DNA from: Gaiellales bacterium
GTDB taxonomy: Bacteria; Actinomycetota; Thermoleophilia; Gaiellales; JAICJC01
Length of the DNA stretch: 64,000 nt
Reading direction: 5' to 3'
NCBI GenBank assembly: GCA_036403155.1
Contig: DASWRM010000010.1
Location: 97,618-161,617 of the forward strand
This document shows, piece by piece, positions 12,892 to 38,505 of the stretch; position 1 is the stretch's first letter; each line of letters opens with the position of its first letter. A program made the translations under genes and the position numbers. The notes below the pieces were generated by a model. It saw only the letters and a list, made by a program, of their open reading frames with translations, was not told the origin of the DNA and did not search any database.

Positions 12892-12906
12892 ATAAGCTTC
12901 GCTTAT
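12892..12906. promoter_or_regulatory. LysR-type operator palindrome over the regulator's own start codon
   Basis: ATAAGCTTCGCTTAT, a perfect palindrome apart from its central 3 bases, containing the LysR box T-N11-A. It covers the start codon at 12905 and the proposed -10 hexamer TAAGCT at 12893, so binding would block transcription of the regulator. The same arms ATAAG-N5-CTTAT occur at 38110-38124 upstream of the sulfonate operon. Confidence 0.6.
12893..12898 (+). promoter_or_regulatory. -10 hexamer for the LysR gene
   Basis: TAAGCT, 6 nt and ATG at 12905; the hexamer is embedded in the palindrome. Confidence 0.4.
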
Positions 12907-13813
12907 GGATCTCCGCCAGCTTCGGACGCTCACCGAGGTCGCCGAGCGCGGATCGTTCTCGGCAGCCGCCGAGGCGCTCGGGATCAGCCAGCCGGCGGTC
13001 AGCCAGCAGATCCGCGCCCTCGAGCGCGGTGCCGGCGGCCGGCTGCTCGACCGCAGCGGCCGCGGCGTCGCGCTGACCGAGCGCGGCGAGCTGGTGCTCC
13101 GCCATGCGCGGCGGATGCTCGCCCTGTCCGAGGAGTTCCGCCGCGATCTGGACGAGGGCGGCGACGAGCTGTCCGGCGCGCTCGTCGTCGGGTCGAGCAC
13201 CGGTCTTGGCGAGCACGTCCTGCCGCTGCTCCTGGGCGGGTTTCGCCAGGAGCACCCCGGAGTCACCGTCTCGCTTCGGATCGAGGCGACGTCCACGGTG
13301 ATCGACCGCGTGCTTGCCCGGGAGCTCGAGCTGGGGGTGGTCGGCGCCTCTCGGCCCCACCGCGCCCTGGTCTACGAGCCGTTCCTCCACGACCGCGTCA
13401 TCCTCGCGGTGCCGGGCGGGCACCGATTCGCAGGCCGGACGGTCGAACTCGCGGAGCTGGTCCGCGAGCCGCTGATCCTGATGCAGTCGGGGGCGGGCGT
13501 TCGCACCGTCATCGAGGAGGAGCTGCGGCGGGCCGGCGTGCGGCCGCGCGAGCTGAACGTGGCGATGGAGATGGGGCTGCAGGAGTCCGCCAAGGCGGCC
13601 GTCGAGGCGGGGTATGGGGTCAGCTTCCTGTCCCAGCTCGCCGTCGAGCGAGAGCTGCGCCTGGGAACGCTCGCGACCGCGGACGTGGCCGGCATCGACC
13701 CCGTTCGCGACTTCTCCACGGTGCGCCTCGCGTCACACCGGCCGAACCGCCTCGTGGCGGCGTTCACCGAGTGGTCGCGGCGGCGGCTCGAGCAGACCGG
13801 CGGCCGGCTGTGA
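12905..13813 (+). CDS. LysR-family transcriptional regulator, CysL-like
   Basis: LysR-type regulator (302 aa). The N-terminal winged helix (residues 1-60) has the family pattern FSAAAEALGISQPAVSQQI followed by LTERGELVL. The effector domain starts with GALVVGSSTGLGEHVLPLLL and has MQSGAGVRTVIEEEL, a layout like Bacillus CysL/YwfK, which controls sulfite reductase genes; that subfamily call is by resemblance only. No gene diverges from it, so its targets are elsewhere. The start codon lies inside a T-N11-A palindrome, consistent with autorepression, and the same palindrome precedes the sulfur operon at 38 kb. Confidence 0.9.
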   Translation: MDLRQLRTLTEVAERGSFSAAAEALGISQPAVSQQIRALERGAGGRLLDRSGRGVALTERGELVLRHARRMLALSEEFRRDLDEGGDELSGALVVGSSTGLGEHVLPLLLGGFRQEHPGVTVSLRIEATSTVIDRVLARELELGVVGASRPHRALVYEPFLHDRVILAVPGGHRFAGRTVELAELVREPLILMQSGAGVRTVIEEELRRAGVRPRELNVAMEMGLQESAKAAVEAGYGVSFLSQLAVERELRLGTLATADVAGIDPVRDFSTVRLASHRPNRLVAAFTEWSRRRLEQTGGRL

Positions 13814-24201: not shown

Positions 24202-25532
24202 GATGAGGGCGATGGTAGCAGCGACCGGTTGGGGCTCCGTGCGGCGGCCGGGGCGAACAGGGCGGCGCCGGCCACGACCAGCAGGAGCACCACGTAGAAG
24301 TAGTCGAAGCCCATCGTCAGGTAGAAGAAGTTGGCTGCCACAGTGCCGGCCAGCGCCGCGGTCAGGCCGGCCCCGAGCAGCCGGTGGGCGGGGTCGGCGG
24401 CGTGGCGCATCAGCATCGCGTTGGCCAGCACCCAGCCGAGGAAGCAGAGGTACAGCGCCAGGCCGGCGACGCCGGTCTCGACGAGCGTCGCCACCCAGAA
24501 GCTGTGAGGGCCGAAGTCCGACTTGCCCGTCAGGAACTCGTAGAAGACGGCGAACGTGTTGTATCCACGCCCGAACAGCGGATGCGGCGAGAGGGCCGGC
24601 TGTATCAGCGAGTAGAACTCGAAGTGCGTCTGCACCCCGTGGCCCTGGACGTTGGTGCGCGATGCGACCACCGTGCGGACGAAGCTCGAGGCCGAGTAGA
24701 GGACGGCGAGCAGGGCGGCCGGCACCGCCGCCGCGAGCAGGAGCGACCGCACTCGCGGCAGCCGGGGCAGGATCGTTGGAGCCAGCACGAGCAGGCCGAC
24801 GATGTCGCCGAGGGCGGCGCTCCGCGACAGCGTCAGCGCCTGCACCGCGAGCAGGAACAGCAGCAGCGCCCCGAGACGGCGATGCGCCCGCCGGTCGCTC
24901 AGGTACCGCGGCAGGAGCGCGAGCAGCGGCACGCAGAGCATCACGCCCAGGTGGTTCGGGTCGCCCGTCAGCGCGTTCACGCGGTAGATGTTCTGCGTTC
25001 CCTTCACCTGCCCGTAGACGTTGATCCCGGTGAACTTGCCCTGACCGGCGGTGAGCGGTGCGACCACGAGCCTGTCGAGGTTGATGCCGGCTCCGACGAC
25101 CAACGCGAGCTGGAGGACGCCGTACACCGCGTTGGCCGCGAGCCCGTAGACGAACCAGCGCAGCGCGCGCTCGAACAGCGGGGCGCCGCGCCGCAGGACG
25201 TGAGCGGCGGCGGCCACGAGGAAGCCGAAGTGGATCAGCCAGGTGACGACTCCCTTCGCCCAGAAGGAGACGTCCTGCTTCGTCTCGAGATCGAAGTACC
25301 CGGCCAGGTAGACCGCGAAGAACGCGAGCAGGAAGCCCGCGAGGGTCGCGCACGTCCTCGGCATCGCGTCATCGCGCCGCTGGATGCGGGCGGCGACGAA
25401 CGCCGCGACGAAGAGGGTGCAGGTGATGTTCGTGATCGTCAGCTGCAGCCCGGCCGCCTGCCACTGGATCTTCGCCATCGTCTGGACGAACAGGGTGCCG
25501 AGCAGCAGCCGGTCGAGCGTGCGGTCGCTCAC
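24198..25532 (-). CDS. O-antigen ligase/polymerase-like membrane protein (Wzy type)
   Basis: Polytopic membrane protein (444 aa) with about ten hydrophobic segments and a large extracytoplasmic loop containing QGHGVQTHFEFYSLIQPALSPHPLFGRGYNTF, the region where Wzy/WaaL-type proteins keep their conserved residues (quoted here in two joined pieces: HFEFYSLI and HPLFGRGYNTF are the useful ones). It would polymerise or ligate glycan repeat units. The start is GTG 25532 in a GTGA overlap with the upstream glycosyltransferase. Confidence 0.8.
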   Translation of the reverse strand: MSDRTLDRLLLGTLFVQTMAKIQWQAAGLQLTITNITCTLFVAAFVAARIQRRDDAMPRTCATLAGFLLAFFAVYLAGYFDLETKQDVSFWAKGVVTWLIHFGFLVAAAAHVLRRGAPLFERALRWFVYGLAANAVYGVLQLALVVGAGINLDRLVVAPLTAGQGKFTGINVYGQVKGTQNIYRVNALTGDPNHLGVMLCVPLLALLPRYLSDRRAHRRLGALLLFLLAVQALTLSRSAALGDIVGLLVLAPTILPRLPRVRSLLLAAAVPAALLAVLYSASSFVRTVVASRTNVQGHGVQTHFEFYSLIQPALSPHPLFGRGYNTFAVFYEFLTGKSDFGPHSFWVATLVETGVAGLALYLCFLGWVLANAMLMRHAADPAHRLLGAGLTAALAGTVAANFFYLTMGFDYFYVVLLLVVAGAALFAPAAARSPNRSLLPSPSS

Positions 25533-31010: not shown

Positions 31011-31904
31011 CTAGGAGCGCTGCAGCGCCGCGGCCAGCCGCTCGCCGCGGGCCACGTACAGGCCGGCGACGATCGCGACCAGCGCGCCGCCCACCACGTA
31101 CCAGACCGGCGCTGCGTCGAGCGTCTTCAGACCCGACGCCGCCAGCACCAGTGCGATCGCCCCGCGGAGGGCGCGCTCGGGGGCGCGGTGGGTGAAGTGC
31201 GAGCCGATCAGGATGCCGGGGATCGAGCCGATCAGGATCGATCCGACGACGCTGTAGTTGGGGGCGCCGAACGCGATCGTGGCCAGTCCGGCGGCGATCG
31301 TGACCAGCATCGCGTGGAACAGGTCGGTGCCGACTACGCGGCGCGCGCTGAGCGGGAACAGCGTGACCAGCGCGATGCCGAAGAACACGCCCGAGCCGAC
31401 CGACGTCAGGCCGAGGATGAACCCGAACACCACGCCGATCGCGACGGCGAGCGTCTTGTGCGACTGCGTCAGCGGCCCGTCGGTCGGGAGCCGGCTCGCG
31501 TCCCAGAGGCCGGGGATCGTGATGAATGTCCGGACGGCGACCGTGAGGCCGACGATCACGAGCACCGTGCCGATCGTGTCGAGCAGCACCGTGTCGACGT
31601 TCACCCCGATCCGCGGGAAGATCTCGTAGAGCGTGAAGACGCCGAGGATGGCGGCCGGCACGCTGCCGACGCCCATCCACAGGCCCAGCTCGCGGTTCAC
31701 GTTCTTCAGCTGGGTGTGGCGGGCGGCCCCGAACACCTTCGTGATCGCAGCGTAGATCAGGTCGCTGCCGACGGCGGTCGACGGCGGGATGCCGAAGACG
31801 CTGATCAGGATCGGCGTCATCAGCGAACCTGCGCCCATGCCGGTGAGGCCGACCAGGATCCCGACCGCCAGGCCCGCTGCGATCATGCCCGTGTTGATGT
31901 CCAT
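31011..31904 (-). CDS. TauE/SafE family sulfite/sulfonate exporter
   Basis: Membrane protein of 297 aa in the TauE/SafE (DUF81) family, whose members export sulfite, sulfoacetate or other sulfonates. About eight hydrophobic segments form two repeats, each with a family loop: GLTGMGAGSLMTPIL near the N-terminus and GLTSVGSGVFFGIAL after residue 160. A conserved GSDLIYAAI/GTDLFHAML pair follows. It lies 198 bp downstream of the sulfate-activation operon on the same strand but has its own promoter and a ribosome site (GGGAGGGG). Export of the operon's product or of excess sulfite is inferred. Confidence 0.9.
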   Translation of the reverse strand: MDINTGMIAAGLAVGILVGLTGMGAGSLMTPILISVFGIPPSTAVGSDLIYAAITKVFGAARHTQLKNVNRELGLWMGVGSVPAAILGVFTLYEIFPRIGVNVDTVLLDTIGTVLVIVGLTVAVRTFITIPGLWDASRLPTDGPLTQSHKTLAVAIGVVFGFILGLTSVGSGVFFGIALVTLFPLSARRVVGTDLFHAMLVTIAAGLATIAFGAPNYSVVGSILIGSIPGILIGSHFTHRAPERALRGAIALVLAASGLKTLDAAPVWYVVGGALVAIVAGLYVARGERLAAALQRS

Positions 31905-31942
31905 CCGCCCTGCCCCTCCCGTGAAGACGACCGCACCCTAGT

Positions 31943-31968
31943 CCCACTAGTGTAAGCGGTTTAGTGGG
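31943..31968. promoter_or_regulatory. inverted-repeat operator candidate at the TauE/SafE promoter
   Basis: CCCACTA (31943-31949) and TAGTGGG (31962-31968) form a perfect inverted repeat with 12 bp between the arms, and the first arm overlaps the smaller palindrome CACTAGTG (31945-31952). The repeat covers the -10 hexamer of the exporter promoter, so a repressor bound here would block it. It differs from the ATAAG-N5-CTTAT sites. Confidence 0.5.
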
Positions 31969-31976
31969 GAATGCAA
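31949..31976 (-). promoter_or_regulatory. promoter of the TauE/SafE gene
   Basis: On the minus strand TTGCAT (31976-31971), 16 nt and TACACT (31954-31949), followed by a leader of about 40 nt with a ribosome-binding site. It is one of the few promoters here with both a -35 and a leader. Confidence 0.55.
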
Positions 31977-32102
31977 CCGGTGTGAGGTTCGCTCGCCTAC
32001 CCGGGTGCTGGAACGCCGAAACGGAGGCTAAGTCGCGGGACGCCGGCGCCGAGGGACGGGACGCGCGCGTTGCGGCCCCGACCCCCCGGCGGACGTGACG
32101 GT

Positions 32103-33272
32103 CTAGCTCTGGCGGTAGGCCGCGATCAGCACCTCGGCGACCTCGGGCCGGGTGAACTCGACCGGCGGTATCTCGCCGTTGCCGAGCATCTCGCGCACCT
32201 TGGTGCCGGACAGGAACACGTGGTGGTCCTGGGGATGCGGACACGTCTTGTTCGACGCCATGTTGCCGCAGGTCCGGCAGAAGAAGGTGTGGTCGAAGAA
32301 CATCGGCTCGATGTCCAGCTCGTGCGGCTCGAACTCGTCGAAGATGTGGTGCGCGTCGTAGGTGCCGTAGTAGCTGCCCACGCCGGCGTGGTCGCGGCCG
32401 ACGATGAAGTGCGAGCACCCGTAGTTCTTCCGGCAGATCGCGTGCCAGACGGCCTCACGGGGGCCGGCGTAGCGCATCGCCGCGGGGAACACCCCGAGCA
32501 GCGTGCGGTCGGCCGGGTAGTACTTCTCGAGCAGCACCTCGTAGCAGCGCATCCGCACGTCGGCGGGGATGTCGTCGCCCTTGGTCTTGCCGACCAGCGG
32601 GTGGAGCAGCAGGCCGTCCACCGTCTCGAGCGCGCACTTCTGGATGTACTCGTGCGCCCGGTGCACCGGGTTTCGCGTCTGAAAGCCGACGACGCGGCTC
32701 CAGCCGCGCTCGGCGAACGCCGCCCGCGTGTCCTTGGGATCGAGGTGGTGCGATGGGAACGCCGGGTCGGGCCGCTTGAAGACCGTCACCGCGCCGCCCA
32801 CGAGCGTCGGGCCCTCGGCATAGATCTGCGCCACGCCCGGGTGGGCGTCCTCCGTCGTCCGGTAGGTCTTCGCCGCCTCGTTCTCGCGGTCGACGGTGAA
32901 CACCTCCTCCACCTCGAGCACCGCCAGGAGCTCGCCCTCGGCGCTCTCGAGCGCGAGGCGGTCGCCCTCCGGCGCCTCGGACACCGAGAGCGTGACCGGC
33001 ATCGCCCACGGCACGCCGTTGGCGAGGTGCATCGACTCCACGGACGCGTCGTAGTCCGCACGGGTCATGAACCCGGTCAGCGGCGACAGTGCGCCAGAGG
33101 CGATCATGTCGAGGTCGGCCGTCTGCTTCTCGCTCATCCGCACACGCGGCAGCGATTGCGCCTGCTCGGCCAGCGAGGCCGCCTCGTCGCCCGTCACCGT
33201 GCGGTCGATCAGCTCGCCGCCGTGCGGCGCGATCAGGTGTCCGGCCTGCGTCGTCGTGGTCGGCTCCGCCAT
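32103..33272 (-). CDS. sat: sulfate adenylyltransferase (ATP sulfurylase)
   Basis: Single-chain ATP sulfurylase (389 aa) making APS from sulfate and ATP. The nucleotide-binding motif [15 protein letters not shown] and the block [12 protein letters not shown] are clear, with [13 protein letters not shown] between them. A small Cys-rich patch [15 protein letters not shown] near residue 335 looks like the zinc site found in several bacterial Sat proteins. It is the homomeric Sat type, not CysDN. The ATG overlaps the cysC stop (TGATG). It is the last gene of the sulfonate operon. Confidence 0.95.
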
Positions 33273-33881: not shown

Positions 33882-34586
33882 TCAGCTGCCGTGGAGGCCG
33901 CACTCCACCTTTCCGGTGCCTTTCCAGCGGCCCGTGCGTTCGTCCGCGCCCTCGGCCACCGCGCTGGTGCAGGGGACGCAGCCGATCGACGGATAGCCGT
34001 GGTCGTGCAGCGTGTTGTAGGGGATGCCGTGCCTCCAGATGTAGCGCCACACGTCGCGGTTCGTCCAGTCGGCCAGCGGCTGCACCTTCACCACGCCGCG
34101 GCGCTCATCTATCTCGATTTTGCGGGCGTTTTCCCGAGTTGTCGACTGCTCTCGCCGAATACCCGTGATCCACGCGTCCATACCGTCGAGCGCCTGGCGC
34201 AGCGGCGCGACCTTCCGCATGCCGCAGCACGCGTCCGGATCCCGCTCCCAGAGCCGCTCTCCGTGCACGGCGGCCTGCTGCTCGACGCTCAGCTCCGGCT
34301 CGATCCGCTCGAACCTGACCGGGTAGCGCTCGATCAGCTTGCGGCGCGTCTCGTAGGTCTCACGGAACAGCAGCCCGGTGTCGAACTCGACGACGCGCAC
34401 GTCCGGCTCGATCTCGGCGAGCATGTGCACCAGCACCGAGCTCTGCTTCTGCCACGAGCACGTCAGCACCATGCGTGGGTGGAACAGGTCGACGGCGACG
34501 CGCAGGACGTCCTCGGCGCTCTTGTCCTCGAGCTCGTCCGCGAGCCGCGCGGCCTCGGCCGCGCTGATGGGCAGCATCGTGCTCAC
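33882..34586 (-). CDS. cysH: assimilatory APS reductase (CysH, [4Fe-4S] type)
   Basis: Thiol-dependent reductase (234 aa) turning APS into sulfite and AMP. The paired Cys motif DACCGMRK and the later IGCVPC give the four cluster ligands that mark APS reductases; PAPS reductases of the E. coli type lack them. The catalytic Cys lies in the C-terminal [19 protein letters not shown] binds the nucleotide. The start is GTG 34586, overlapping the comA stop by four bases, so sulfite production is translationally coupled to the enzyme that consumes sulfite. Confidence 0.94.
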
Positions 34587-35362
34587 GTGGCGGTGGGGAT
34601 GTCGCGGAGCAGGAGGTCCGGCATGGTGTCCGACCGCAGGCCCAGGCGCAGCGTCTCGAGCGGGATCACCTCGTCCGGAGGGATGTTGCCGAGGTTCACC
34701 TCGGAGCCCAGGTGCCGGATGAACCACGCCTGCTGCTCCTTCTGGGGCGCCTCGAACAGCAGGTTGTCGACCGGGATCTCGTGCACGATCTCGTCGATCA
34801 GCCCGCTGCGCACCTCGCCGGTGCCGCGGAAGATGCCGGCGGTCCCCGTCTCGCGCGCCTCGGTGATCACCTTCCACGCCCCCGCCTCGAGCTCCTCGCG
34901 GATCCAGGCCACCCACTGGTAGGGCGCGTAGATGGCGTCCTGGTCCTTCGAGCCGACCTCGGACAGCACGACGAAGTCCTCGGCAAGCGCGCTGATCAGC
35001 TCCTGCTTGCTCTCGCGCTCCATGCGCAGCGTGCCGTCAGACACCTCGACGTGGGTGAACCCGTGGCCCTTCACCCAGCGCTTGAACTCGTCCACCCGGC
35101 CGCGCGCAACCGCTGCCTCGAGCAGCGTGCCGCCGCACATCACCGGGGTGTCGAAGGAGCGGTAGAGCTTCACCTTGTCGGGCAGGTTCTGCGTGACGTA
35201 CGACGTGCCCCAGCCGAGCTTGACGATGTCGACGTACTCGCCGGCCGTCTCGAACATCCCGTTCACCTCGGCCAGCGTCATGCCCTTGTCCATGACATGG
35301 GTGAGGCCGCGTTCGCGCGGCTTCGACGGGCGCAGCGGGATTCCCAGGAACTCTTCGACCAT
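34583..35362 (-). CDS. comA: phosphosulfolactate synthase (ComA family)
   Basis: (2R)-phospho-3-sulfolactate synthase (259 aa), which adds sulfite to phosphoenolpyruvate. The family signatures run through the whole chain: RERGLTHVMDKG near residue 18, VDIVKLGWGTS, CGGTLLE, EVSDGT, VLSEVGSKD, KVITEARETGTAGI and LLFEAPQKEQQAWFI. Known relatives make sulfolactate for coenzyme M in methanogens and in Xanthobacter, and for Bacillus spores. The usual phosphatase ComB is not in the window. It sits between fumarase-like genes (3-nt gap) and sulfate-reduction genes (4-nt overlap). Confidence 0.94.
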   Translation of the reverse strand: MVEEFLGIPLRPSKPRERGLTHVMDKGMTLAEVNGMFETAGEYVDIVKLGWGTSYVTQNLPDKVKLYRSFDTPVMCGGTLLEAAVARGRVDEFKRWVKGHGFTHVEVSDGTLRMERESKQELISALAEDFVVLSEVGSKDQDAIYAPYQWVAWIREELEAGAWKVITEARETGTAGIFRGTGEVRSGLIDEIVHEIPVDNLLFEAPQKEQQAWFIRHLGSEVNLGNIPPDEVIPLETLRLGLRSDTMPDLLLRDIPTAT

Positions 35363-35365
35363 GGT

Positions 35366-35953
35366 CTACAACCTCGAGTAGATGGTTTCTTCGAGCCGCC
35401 TGCGCGCCTCGACCTGGACATTCTCGTAGAGCGACTCGCCGTGCGTGTCCATGCCGACGATCAGCGGGCCGAAGTCCCGCACCCGGAACTTCCAGAGGCA
35501 TTCCGGCATGAGGTCCTCCCACTCGACCTGCTCGATCTCCTCGATCTGCGTCGTCTCGAGCGCCGCCGCGCCGCCGACGATTGCGAGGTACACGCCGCCA
35601 TGCTGCCGCAACGGCGCGAGCGCCTCGGGCAGCAGGCCACCCTTGCCGATGATCGCTCGGGCGTGGTGGTCGCGCACCAGGCCCTCGGTGAACCGGCTCA
35701 TCCGCGCGCTCGTCGTGGTGCCGATGCACATCGGCTCGTAGCGGCCCTCGCCTACCTTGCGGACGTTGGGCGCGGTGTGCAGCAGCGCGGCTCCCTCGAG
35801 CGACATCGGCGGCTCCTGGCCGCGGTCGAAGATGCGGATCTGCGTCGCGTCGCGGATGCCGATGATGTGGCCCTGGATGGTGACGGTGTCGCCGGCGTGC
35901 AGCCCGCGGACGGTGGCCTCGTCGGTCGGGAAGCCGATGTCGTGGTGGGCCAT
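35366..35953 (-). CDS. class I fumarase / tartrate dehydratase-like beta subunit
   Basis: C-terminal (beta) subunit (195 aa) of a two-subunit [4Fe-4S] hydro-lyase of the fumarase class I / L(+)-tartrate dehydratase family. It shows the swivelling-domain features: GDTVTIQGHIIGIRDATQ, CIGTTTSARMSRF, RAIIGKGGL and DFGPLIVGMDTHGESLY. The ATG overlaps the alpha-subunit stop by one base. Sulfolactate or phosphosulfolactate rather than malate is an inferred substrate, from its place next to comA; ordinary fumarase activity is the alternative. Confidence 0.9.
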   Translation of the reverse strand: MAHHDIGFPTDEATVRGLHAGDTVTIQGHIIGIRDATQIRIFDRGQEPPMSLEGAALLHTAPNVRKVGEGRYEPMCIGTTTSARMSRFTEGLVRDHHARAIIGKGGLLPEALAPLRQHGGVYLAIVGGAAALETTQIEEIEQVEWEDLMPECLWKFRVRDFGPLIVGMDTHGESLYENVQVEARRRLEETIYSRL

Positions 35954-36852
35954 CAGGCCTCCCGGTCGTAGTCGACGGTGCCGTCGGCGTGGATGTGGGC
36001 GCTGGCACGGCGGGCGGCCCAGCACTGGTAGTTCACGGCGACGGGGTTCAACGTGATGTGCGTGTGCGCCTGCTCGACGTGCACCGACAGCACGGTGGTG
36101 TCGCCGCCGAGCCCCATCGGCCCGATGCCGGTCTCGTTGAGCAGCTCGAACAGCTCGCGCTCCAGCTGGGCGACGTCGGGGTCGGGGTTGACGTCCTCGA
36201 CCGGTCGGGCGATCGCCTCCTTGGCAAGGTGCATGGCCAGGTCGGCGGAGCCGCCGATGCCCACGCCGACGATTCCCGGCGGGCAGGGCTTGCCGCCGGC
36301 GCCGACGATCGAGTCGAGCACGAACCGCTTGATCGCGGCGACGCCGTCGGCGGGCACGAGCATCTTCAGGAAGCTCATGTTCTCGGAGCCCGAGCCCTTG
36401 GGGATGCACTTCACGTCCAGCCCGTCCCAGTCGGGCACGAAGTCCCAGTGGATGTGCGGGATCTTGTGCCCGGTGTTGTCGCCGGTGGCCACACGCGTGA
36501 GGGTGTGGACGGTGTTCGAGCGCAGCGGGTGCTCGAGCGTCGCGCGGCGCGTTCCCTCGCGCAGCGCCTGCTCGATCCGCGCCGGGTGGAGCGGGAAGTG
36601 CTCGCCCAGGCGGACGTAGTAGACGGCGAGGCCGGTGTCCTGGCAGACGAGATTCTTGGTGTCGTCTGCGACCGAGACGTTGGTGTTGATCGTCTCGAGA
36701 ATGCGCTTGCCGACCTTGTGCGTCTCGCGCTCCATCGCTCCGCGCAGCGCGTCGCGCAGATCCTGGGGGATGTCCTTCAGCGCCCACACGTAGAGATGCG
36801 CGGATGCGTCCTCGACGGTCTGCTGCAGGTCGGTTGTGATGTCGATGGCCAC
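35953..36852 (-). CDS. class I fumarase / tartrate dehydratase-like alpha subunit
   Basis: N-terminal (alpha) catalytic subunit (299 aa) of the same hydro-lyase. The three cluster cysteines expected in the family are in LVCQDTGLAVY, GKPCPPGIVGVGIGGS and NYQCWAARR. These enzymes remove water from 2-hydroxy acids carrying a second anionic group. Malate differs from 3-sulfolactate only in having a carboxylate where sulfolactate has a sulfonate. The gene starts 15 nt after the FAD reductase gene ends. Confidence 0.92.
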   Translation of the reverse strand: MAIDITTDLQQTVEDASAHLYVWALKDIPQDLRDALRGAMERETHKVGKRILETINTNVSVADDTKNLVCQDTGLAVYYVRLGEHFPLHPARIEQALREGTRRATLEHPLRSNTVHTLTRVATGDNTGHKIPHIHWDFVPDWDGLDVKCIPKGSGSENMSFLKMLVPADGVAAIKRFVLDSIVGAGGKPCPPGIVGVGIGGSADLAMHLAKEAIARPVEDVNPDPDVAQLERELFELLNETGIGPMGLGGDTTVLSVHVEQAHTHITLNPVAVNYQCWAARRASAHIHADGTVDYDREA

Positions 36853-36867
36853 GGGTGGTCGGTCCTT

Positions 36868-38073
36868 TCAGCGGGCGGCGTGTGCGGCCGCGCGCCCGGC
36901 GCGGCGTCCGAATACGGTGCAGTCGAGCAGGGAGTTGCCCATCATGCGGTTGCGCCCATGTACGCCGCCGGTGATCTCGCCGGCGGCGAAGAGGCCCTGC
37001 ACGGTGGTCTGGCCGTCCCGGTCGATCACCAGGCCGCCGTTTTGGTAGTGAAGCACGGGATAGGTGAGGACCGGCTCGGTCAGCGGGTCGACGCCGGCGT
37101 GGCGGTAGCGGCGGAGCATGTACGGCAGGACTTCCCCGGCGACGCCCGCGTCGATCCGCGTGGTGTCCAGCAGGACGGCCGGCCGGCCGTCGGGCGTCGT
37201 CAGACCGCGCCCCTCGTCGCACTCCTTCACGATCGCGGCGGCGACGGTGTCGCGCGGGGCCAGCTCGTCGACGAACCGCTCGCCCTCGGCGTTGACGAGC
37301 AGCGCGCCGTAGCTGCGCGTGGTCTCGGGGATCGAGTAGCCCTGCAGCGGCGGCGGCCACGCGCCGCCGTTGGGATGGTGCTGGAGTGAGTCGTCGTCGC
37401 GCGCATCCGCGCCGGCTTCCTGCGCGATCTGTGCGACCTCTCCGGTCGCGCCCGGCTGGTTGGTCGTCAGCACCCCGCGGCGCTGCGCCTCCGCGTAGCA
37501 GCGGCCGCCGGCAGCGAGCACCACCGCGCCCGCCTCGATCACGCCGCGCTCGCCGTGCTGCTCGACCGTCGCGTCGAAATGCCCATTGGCGCGGTCGACC
37601 GCGACGAGCGGGGTGTGGCCGTGGATCTCGATTCCCTCATCCGCGAGCGCGCCGCGCAGCGCATGGGCGATGGCGTGGCCCGTGCGGTCGCCCACCTGCA
37701 GCAGCCGCTTGGCGGTCGCGCCGCCGCAGCGGGCGAGGCGGTAGCCGTCACCCTCGCGGGAGAACTCGACCCCCAGTGACTCGAGCCATGTGATCGCGCC
37801 GGGCGCCTCTCCGGTCAGCACCGAGACCAGCTCCATGTCGGCGGTGTCGTGCGACGACCGGTAAACGTCCTGCGCGTGCTGCTCGGGAGAATCGTCGCCG
37901 CCGACGGCGGCCTGGATCCCGCCCTGCGCCTTGCCGGTATTGCACGAGGCGGGCGACCCTTTTGTGATGACCGTGACGCGTGCCCCTGCGCGCGAGGCAG
38001 CCCACGCGGCCGCCAGGCCTGCGCCGCCGCTCCCGACCACGAGCACGTCGGTTGTCCGTGGAACGCCGTTCAT
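36868..38073 (-). CDS. FAD-dependent fumarate-reductase/aspartate-oxidase-like enzyme
   Basis: Flavoprotein (401 aa) of the succinate dehydrogenase/fumarate reductase/L-aspartate oxidase family. The FAD motif is VLVVGSGGAGLAAA. The catalytic Arg is kept in DELAPRDTVAAAI and the substrate His in HYQNGGLVID; the second FAD region is LFAAGEITGGVHGRNRMMGNSLL. The His that binds FAD covalently in FrdA/SdhA is replaced (SCNTGKAQGGI), and the C-terminal helical domain is missing. No iron-sulfur subunit gene is adjacent. Start ATG 38073 lies 7 nt after TAGAAT; the ATG at 38082 overlaps that hexamer. Confidence 0.88.
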   Translation of the reverse strand: MNGVPRTTDVLVVGSGGAGLAAAWAASRAGARVTVITKGSPASCNTGKAQGGIQAAVGGDDSPEQHAQDVYRSSHDTADMELVSVLTGEAPGAITWLESLGVEFSREGDGYRLARCGGATAKRLLQVGDRTGHAIAHALRGALADEGIEIHGHTPLVAVDRANGHFDATVEQHGERGVIEAGAVVLAAGGRCYAEAQRRGVLTTNQPGATGEVAQIAQEAGADARDDDSLQHHPNGGAWPPPLQGYSIPETTRSYGALLVNAEGERFVDELAPRDTVAAAIVKECDEGRGLTTPDGRPAVLLDTTRIDAGVAGEVLPYMLRRYRHAGVDPLTEPVLTYPVLHYQNGGLVIDRDGQTTVQGLFAAGEITGGVHGRNRMMGNSLLDCTVFGRRAGRAAAHAAR

Positions 38074-38080
38074 CCGACGC

Positions 38081-38086
38081 ATTCTA
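38081..38086 (-). promoter_or_regulatory. -10 hexamer of the sulfonate operon
   Basis: TAGAAT on the minus strand, 7 nt and ATG 38073. The -35 position reads TTTCCG, a poor match, which fits activator dependence. Confidence 0.5.
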
Positions 38087-38097
38087 CAGAAGCGCTG

Positions 38098-38505
38098 CTA
38101 ATCCGGAAAATAAGATCTGCTTATATCGGTGATGTCGGCCGTATCGGCCGGGCGGGGGTCCCAGGGAAGCACCAGCGGGTCGCCGTCATAGCGGGGGATG
38201 ACATGCACGTGGTAGTGGAAGACCGTCTGCCACGCGGCCGCGCCGTTCGACTGCATGATCGTCACGCCCTGCGCACCGAGCCCTGAGAGCGCCCGCGCGG
38301 CGACGTCCCGGGCGACAGCCGCGCAATGCGCCAGATCGTCATCCTCGATGTCGCCGAGGTCGCGCGAATGCCTGCGTGGAATCACCAGTGCATGCCCCCG
38401 CGTGGCCGGGTTGATGTCCATGATCGCGATCGCGCGGTCGTCCTCATGGATCCGTGTGGACGGCAGGTCGCCGGCCACGATGCGGCAGAAGATGCAGTCC
38501 TCCAT
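38098..38505 (-). CDS. HIT-family nucleotide hydrolase/transferase
   Basis: Histidine-triad protein (135 aa). The triad motif is HYHVHVIPR near residue 97 and the N-terminal CIFCRIVAGD has the zinc-type cysteines of HinT-like proteins. Family members cleave AMP from phosphoramidates, and some split adenosine 5'-phosphosulfate. It lies directly upstream of the sulfonate operon on the same strand, 24 nt before that start codon, so read-through into the operon and a role in APS turnover are possible but unproven. Confidence 0.92.
   Translation of the reverse strand: MEDCIFCRIVAGDLPSTRIHEDDRAIAIMDINPATRGHALVIPRRHSRDLGDIEDDDLAHCAAVARDVAARALSGLGAQGVTIMQSNGAAAWQTVFHYHVHVIPRYDGDPLVLPWDPRPADTADITDISRSYFPD
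38110..38124. promoter_or_regulatory. LysR-type palindrome upstream of the sulfonate operon
   Basis: ATAAGATCTGCTTAT, again ATAAG-N5-CTTAT with T-N11-A, centred about 44 bp before the start codon at 38073, where a LysR activator would touch RNA polymerase. It lies in the last codons of the HIT gene and is strikingly AT-rich for this DNA. The same arms cover the start of the LysR gene at 12905. Confidence 0.6.

Follow-up and report, generated by a model that had tools for sequence, protein, structure and literature searches.

The tauE/safE-family gene in the 64,000-nucleotide stretch of Gaiellales DNA analyzed here (the window, from genome G000) is preceded by a 40-bp conserved element, TTGCATTCCCCACTAAACCGCTTACACTAGTGGGACTAGG (profile R1; 31937 to 31976, minus strand). 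The element was defined by alignment, profile scans, and identity comparison and was found in front of all nine tauE/safE copies in five family genomes, five of them orthologues and four tandem paralogues. The family, a small one of uncultured bacteria in which these genes end the sulfate-assimilation cluster, spans two genera, the genomes other than G000 including G001, G002, G003, and G004, and two of the five are Thermoleophilia MAGs. The element is most likely a real genetic switch of an ordinary kind, and we favor the reading in which tauE forms a separate transcription unit and the element is its promoter, lying under the operator of a dimeric repressor.

The gene itself (31011 to 31904, minus strand) encodes a membrane transporter whose PF01925 score of 142.1 bits, well over the cut-off (32.6), places it in the TauE/SafE (TSUP) family; there was no NCBIfam match to the product, and no solved structure was matched by sequence. 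On the same strand, 198 bp upstream, lies sat (ATP sulfurylase; 32103 to 33272), followed between 33272 and 38082 by genes for CysC, PAPS reductase, ComA, fumarase-like subunits, and an FAD-binding_2 protein. These assignments were made from open reading frames and Pfam, except that position and conservation, rather than Pfam, gave the second fumarase-like subunit its name. The earlier note had placed tauE at the border of a sulfonate operon; the adjacency is correct, but the operon is really one of sulfate assimilation and sulfolactate (sat, cysC, cysH, and comA). The comA product was phosphosulfolactate synthase-like and scored below the NCBIfam equivalog cut-off. The comA, fumarase-like, and FAD-binding genes (34583 to 38082) stand together with those for sulfate assimilation, a combination of which we know of no description.

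Direct reading of the sequence confirmed the repeat and the promoter-like hexamers where the earlier note had put them. The perfect inverted repeat CCCACTA-N12-TAGTGGG (31943 to 31968, unstranded; also located by pattern search) includes the inner palindrome CACTAGTG at 31945 to 31952, and the minus strand carries a predicted −35 hexamer, TTGCAT (31976 to 31971), separated by a 16-nt spacer from a predicted −10 hexamer, TACACT (31954 to 31949), which is TATATT or TAGACT in relatives. Both hexamers were assigned from the sequence, the family alignment, and a pattern count, in which TTGCAT-N16-TANANT with up to one mismatch occurred once in the window versus 0.08 expected; a standard TTGACA/TATAAT promoter scan of 31850 to 32200 reported no promoter. 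There are 38 bases between the end of the repeat and the tauE start, which is preceded by a Shine-Dalgarno-like sequence, GGGAGGGG (31913 to 31920, minus strand), seen by sequence reading. The exact repeat occurred once in the window, in a test that is circular, the pattern having been taken from the site. The repeat alone proves nothing, since such repeats are common as a class: perfect 7-bp inverted repeats whose spacer is 3 to 20 number 270 in the window, 20 of them having a spacer of 12. Its significance comes from the conservation of the element before nine of nine tauE copies.

The nine family sites gave the consensus TTGCATTCyCCACTAgtTCgcTTAgAcTtGTcGGG over 35 to 40 bp. In ungapped comparison of 35 columns, identity within the element averaged 75% over 36 pairs and 71% over the 18 cross-genus pairs, versus 31%, 30%, and 36% for three stretches of flanking sequence. 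The element is thus conserved before orthologues beyond its flanks (75% versus about 31%, at nine of nine copies), as is expected of the operator of a dimeric repressor. A pattern taken from the orthologue promoters and allowed up to two mismatches was found at nine places in 61 genomes, each directly before a family tauE copy, with two matches to the reversed control. When the five family genomes were scanned with the profile (E ≤ 10), only the nine tauE sites from which that same profile had been built were returned, each genome having one or two copies of the element and none of the copies preceding a regulator gene; over the 61 genomes (E ≤ 1), the profile found one extra match, weak and partial, in G032 (E value of 0.138). 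A consensus-dyad pattern, searched for in 299 genomes of the class, matched five places, each a tauE site in one of four family genomes, and missed four of the nine known sites, including that of G000; its reversed control gave seven matches. A scan of named genomes returned 12 loci, two belonging to family members and ten to distant Bacillaceae homologues. Literature searches found no paper on the tauE element.

Scoring of the profile and of each sequence located a 28-bp dyad, the predicted operator, at 31942 to 31969 (unstranded; consensus CCCCACtAGT-N8-ACTtGTcGGG). The best dyad center of the profile coincides with the center of the perfect 7-bp repeat, and this center had the top or tied top dyad count in all nine site sequences. 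The conserved arms, CCCCACtAGT and ACTtGTcGGG, are 8 bp apart and imperfect, with 5 to 8 of 14 positions matching per sequence; the perfect 7-bp arms are special to G000. The motif search in relatives that had been suggested as a check had a divided outcome, the tauE-specific dyad element being conserved but the exact 7-bp arms not being kept outside the genus. A search of the five genomes for the exact repeat, allowing up to two mismatches, recovered no tauE sites but those of G000 and G001; G002 and G003 had a single match apiece, located elsewhere than at tauE, and G004 had none. The exact repeat was accordingly rejected as the conserved unit.

One end of the dyad falls immediately behind the −35 and the other a little beyond the −10, with the 16-nt-spaced promoter-like hexamers beneath it. 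It is possible, if unlikely, that the element is merely a strongly constrained core promoter, perhaps one for a particular sigma factor, and that the dyad is incidental. The most conserved columns do include the hexamers (TT.. and TTA.A.T), and the column-shuffle test of dyad symmetry was borderline, with 260 of 5,000 shuffles scoring as high. However, the spacer also has invariant or near-invariant bases (CCA..A), which are not expected of a plain promoter, as does the stretch following the −10 (GT and then mostly GG), and the element was found at no other gene in the five genomes, which would be unexpected for a general promoter.

In the favored reading, a promoter under a repressor's operator, a separate tauE transcription unit would start from a promoter within the element. 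A dimeric DNA-binding protein would occupy two 10-bp half-sites (ACTnGTsGGG, 8 bp apart) that begin immediately behind the −35 and end shortly after the −10, and the bound protein would block RNA polymerase. Release of the promoter would come with a sulfur signal, whether sulfite, a thiol, or a compound related to these, so that the transporter would be made on demand, with no dependence on the LysR-type control of the neighboring operon. Telling against this reading are the imperfection of the dyad and its borderline shuffle result, the low copy number of the element and its occurrence before no regulator gene, the ORF reading that found no regulator beside tauE in relatives, the lack of a strong hairpin between sat and tauE in G000, and the empty standard promoter scan. 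We prefer repression because the dyad lies across the promoter. An activator acting at the same place, for instance by MerR-type remodeling of the spacer, is improbable: the hexamers match the consensus poorly and the dyad overlaps the spacer, but the 16-nt spacer is shorter than the 19 to 20 nt of MerR-type promoters, and the dyad extends past the −10, the usual position of a repressor. Of the separate repressor over an exporter that the earlier note had envisaged, the conserved, tauE-specific, promoter- and operator-like element with its dyad is upheld, and the terms "repressor" and "exporter" stand as predictions.

The arrangement of tauE in relatives was also compared. Within the stretches covered, 24 of 29 relatives' tauE loci (L006 to L034) were preceded on the same strand by sat or comA, and five (L011, L013, L020, L027, and L028) did not. 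Four of the 24 are family members, with gaps of 65 to 105 nt (198 bp in G000); among the remaining 20, 14 had a gap before tauE of 30 nt or less, the starts being approximate. Judged by gene order, the usual arrangement of sat or comA with tauE looks like cotranscription, from which the family of the window departs. Four family genomes hold an extra tauE paralogue between sat and the orthologue, bringing the copies to nine. Where the congener and the three other family genomes have two tauE genes in tandem, G000 has a single one (interval of 31905 to 32102), apparently through loss of the upstream paralogue from between sat and tauE.

In all four of these relatives, an inverted repeat with arms of 12 to 18 bp that are 93 to 100% complementary lies between sat and the −35 of the first tauE paralogue. 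The repeats are suggestive of terminators, though they have no T run, and a hairpin in that position is as expected of a separate tauE unit. No strong hairpin was found between sat and tauE in G000, and read-through from sat into tauE would therefore be possible in that genome. The four hairpins adjoin the −35 of the first paralogue and differ in sequence from one another (L035:7519-7554, L036:12472-12511, L037:8214-8247, and L038:1601-1634). At the first paralogue of G003 (L037:8160-8220), the probable GTG start lies a few bases past the element, so that the transcript would be nearly leaderless.

The adjacent sulfate-assimilation operon is preceded by a LysR-type palindrome, ATAAGCAGATCTTAT (38110 to 38124, minus strand; identified by pattern search and comparison), the counterpart of which in G001 (L035) is ATAAGCTCCGCTTAT. 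A LysR gene at 12905 to 13813 carries ATAAGCTTCGCTTAT over its start (12892 to 12906); this start-codon palindrome is a perfect ATAAGC-N3-GCTTAT and lies 25 kb from the near-identical site before the operon. Because near-identical palindromes occur at its own start and before the operon, the LysR protein is a good candidate for the regulator of the operon and of its own gene. That it also controls tauE via the element is very unlikely. The palindrome over the start of the LysR gene does resemble the site of the operon, and the tauE element holds GCTTA-like bases, but ATAAGC-N4-CTTAT with up to one mismatch was found in the window only at the two sites just given and not near tauE, in agreement with the earlier claim that the tauE element differs from the LysR palindrome.

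It is extremely unlikely that the repeat acts as an RNA hairpin, either attenuator or terminator, in the leader. Although the arms are perfectly complementary in G000, the folding was no better than that of shuffles (z = +1.73; 195 of 200 shuffles were at least as good), the covariation score was not above that of shuffles (133 of 500 reached it), and the first arm would be untranscribed if the promoter is right; this reading was rejected on the folding and covariation tests. The probability of a chance repeat without function is negligible, for while the window has its 270 similar repeats and the exact arms are not kept, the conservation extends across two genera and across paralogues.

Reading of the open reading frames around tauE in relatives revealed no adjacent regulator gene. 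CsoR-family genes were found once each in three of the five family genomes and not in G000 (98% complete) or G003 (81% complete), and no site like ATACC-N6-GGTAT was present near tauE; when up to two mismatches were allowed, the window had a single such place, at 25296. Since the gene was not found in two of five genomes and the site was not at tauE, CsoR/CstR was rejected as the family-wide regulator. Long dyads over promoters are typical of Rrf2-type regulators (IscR/CymR type), and each of the five family genomes has one strong Rrf2 gene, but linkage to sulfur genes was not seen: 30 Rrf2 loci (drawn from 33 matches in 32 of 61 genomes) were checked over the stretch covered, and in none was sat, cysC, cysH, comA, or tauE matched; the tauE loci contained no Rrf2 gene. 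Gene order thus lends Rrf2 no linkage support as the regulator, but since such linkage is supportive rather than required, Rrf2 is still a candidate. We tentatively suggest that the predicted 28-bp operator may be a previously undescribed one serving an unlinked regulator with one or two targets per genome, and that it may have arisen when tauE left the sulfate-assimilation operon in this family and been duplicated with the gene, leaving both paralogues under one switch.

Several described systems share features with this arrangement. For Streptomyces coelicolor, the passages on ScCsoR describe CsoR-like/CstR control of persulfide dioxygenase-tauE operons through the site ATACC-N6-GGTAT (PMC7533328). 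The likeness lies in a repressor on the promoter of a TauE-type transporter unit and in a sulfur signal, both proposed here; the differences, as far as that account goes, are that no such site lies near our tauE and that the neighbors here are sulfate-assimilation genes. In Corynebacterium glutamicum, the part of PMC2580772 that deals with binding sites describes the ROK-family regulator CysR as recognizing two 10-bp motifs in inverted repeat, 6 to 8 bp apart, with the half-site TGAAtnnAAt, and places McbR sites often between the −35 and −10. CysR is thus comparable in its paired 10-bp inverted motifs but not in their sequence (ACTnGTsGGG here), and McbR is comparable in the position of its sites.

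The same organism offers a comparison for the transporter. The relevant passages of PMC5840216 describe C. glutamicum cysZ as a TSUP-family sulfate permease in the sulfate-assimilation operon and include probable sulfite or organosulfonate exporters among the TSUP family members. Like cysZ, tauE encodes a TSUP-family transporter among sulfate-assimilation genes, and such a protein may import sulfate; unlike cysZ as it is presented there, the family tauE has its own conserved predicted promoter, and a sulfate-binding ABC component is also encoded in the genome. As this component is present in all five family genomes, export of sulfite appears the more likely role, judged from the protein family.

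The specific 40-bp sequence provides a bait with which the protein regulating a TauE-family transporter could be sought in a class that has been little studied. It also presents a clear-cut example of a gene's departure from an operon, 14 of the 20 nonfamily loci being close-packed while the family tauE has its own predicted promoter. Once found, the regulator and its signal would help to settle the direction of transport, sulfite outward or sulfate inward.
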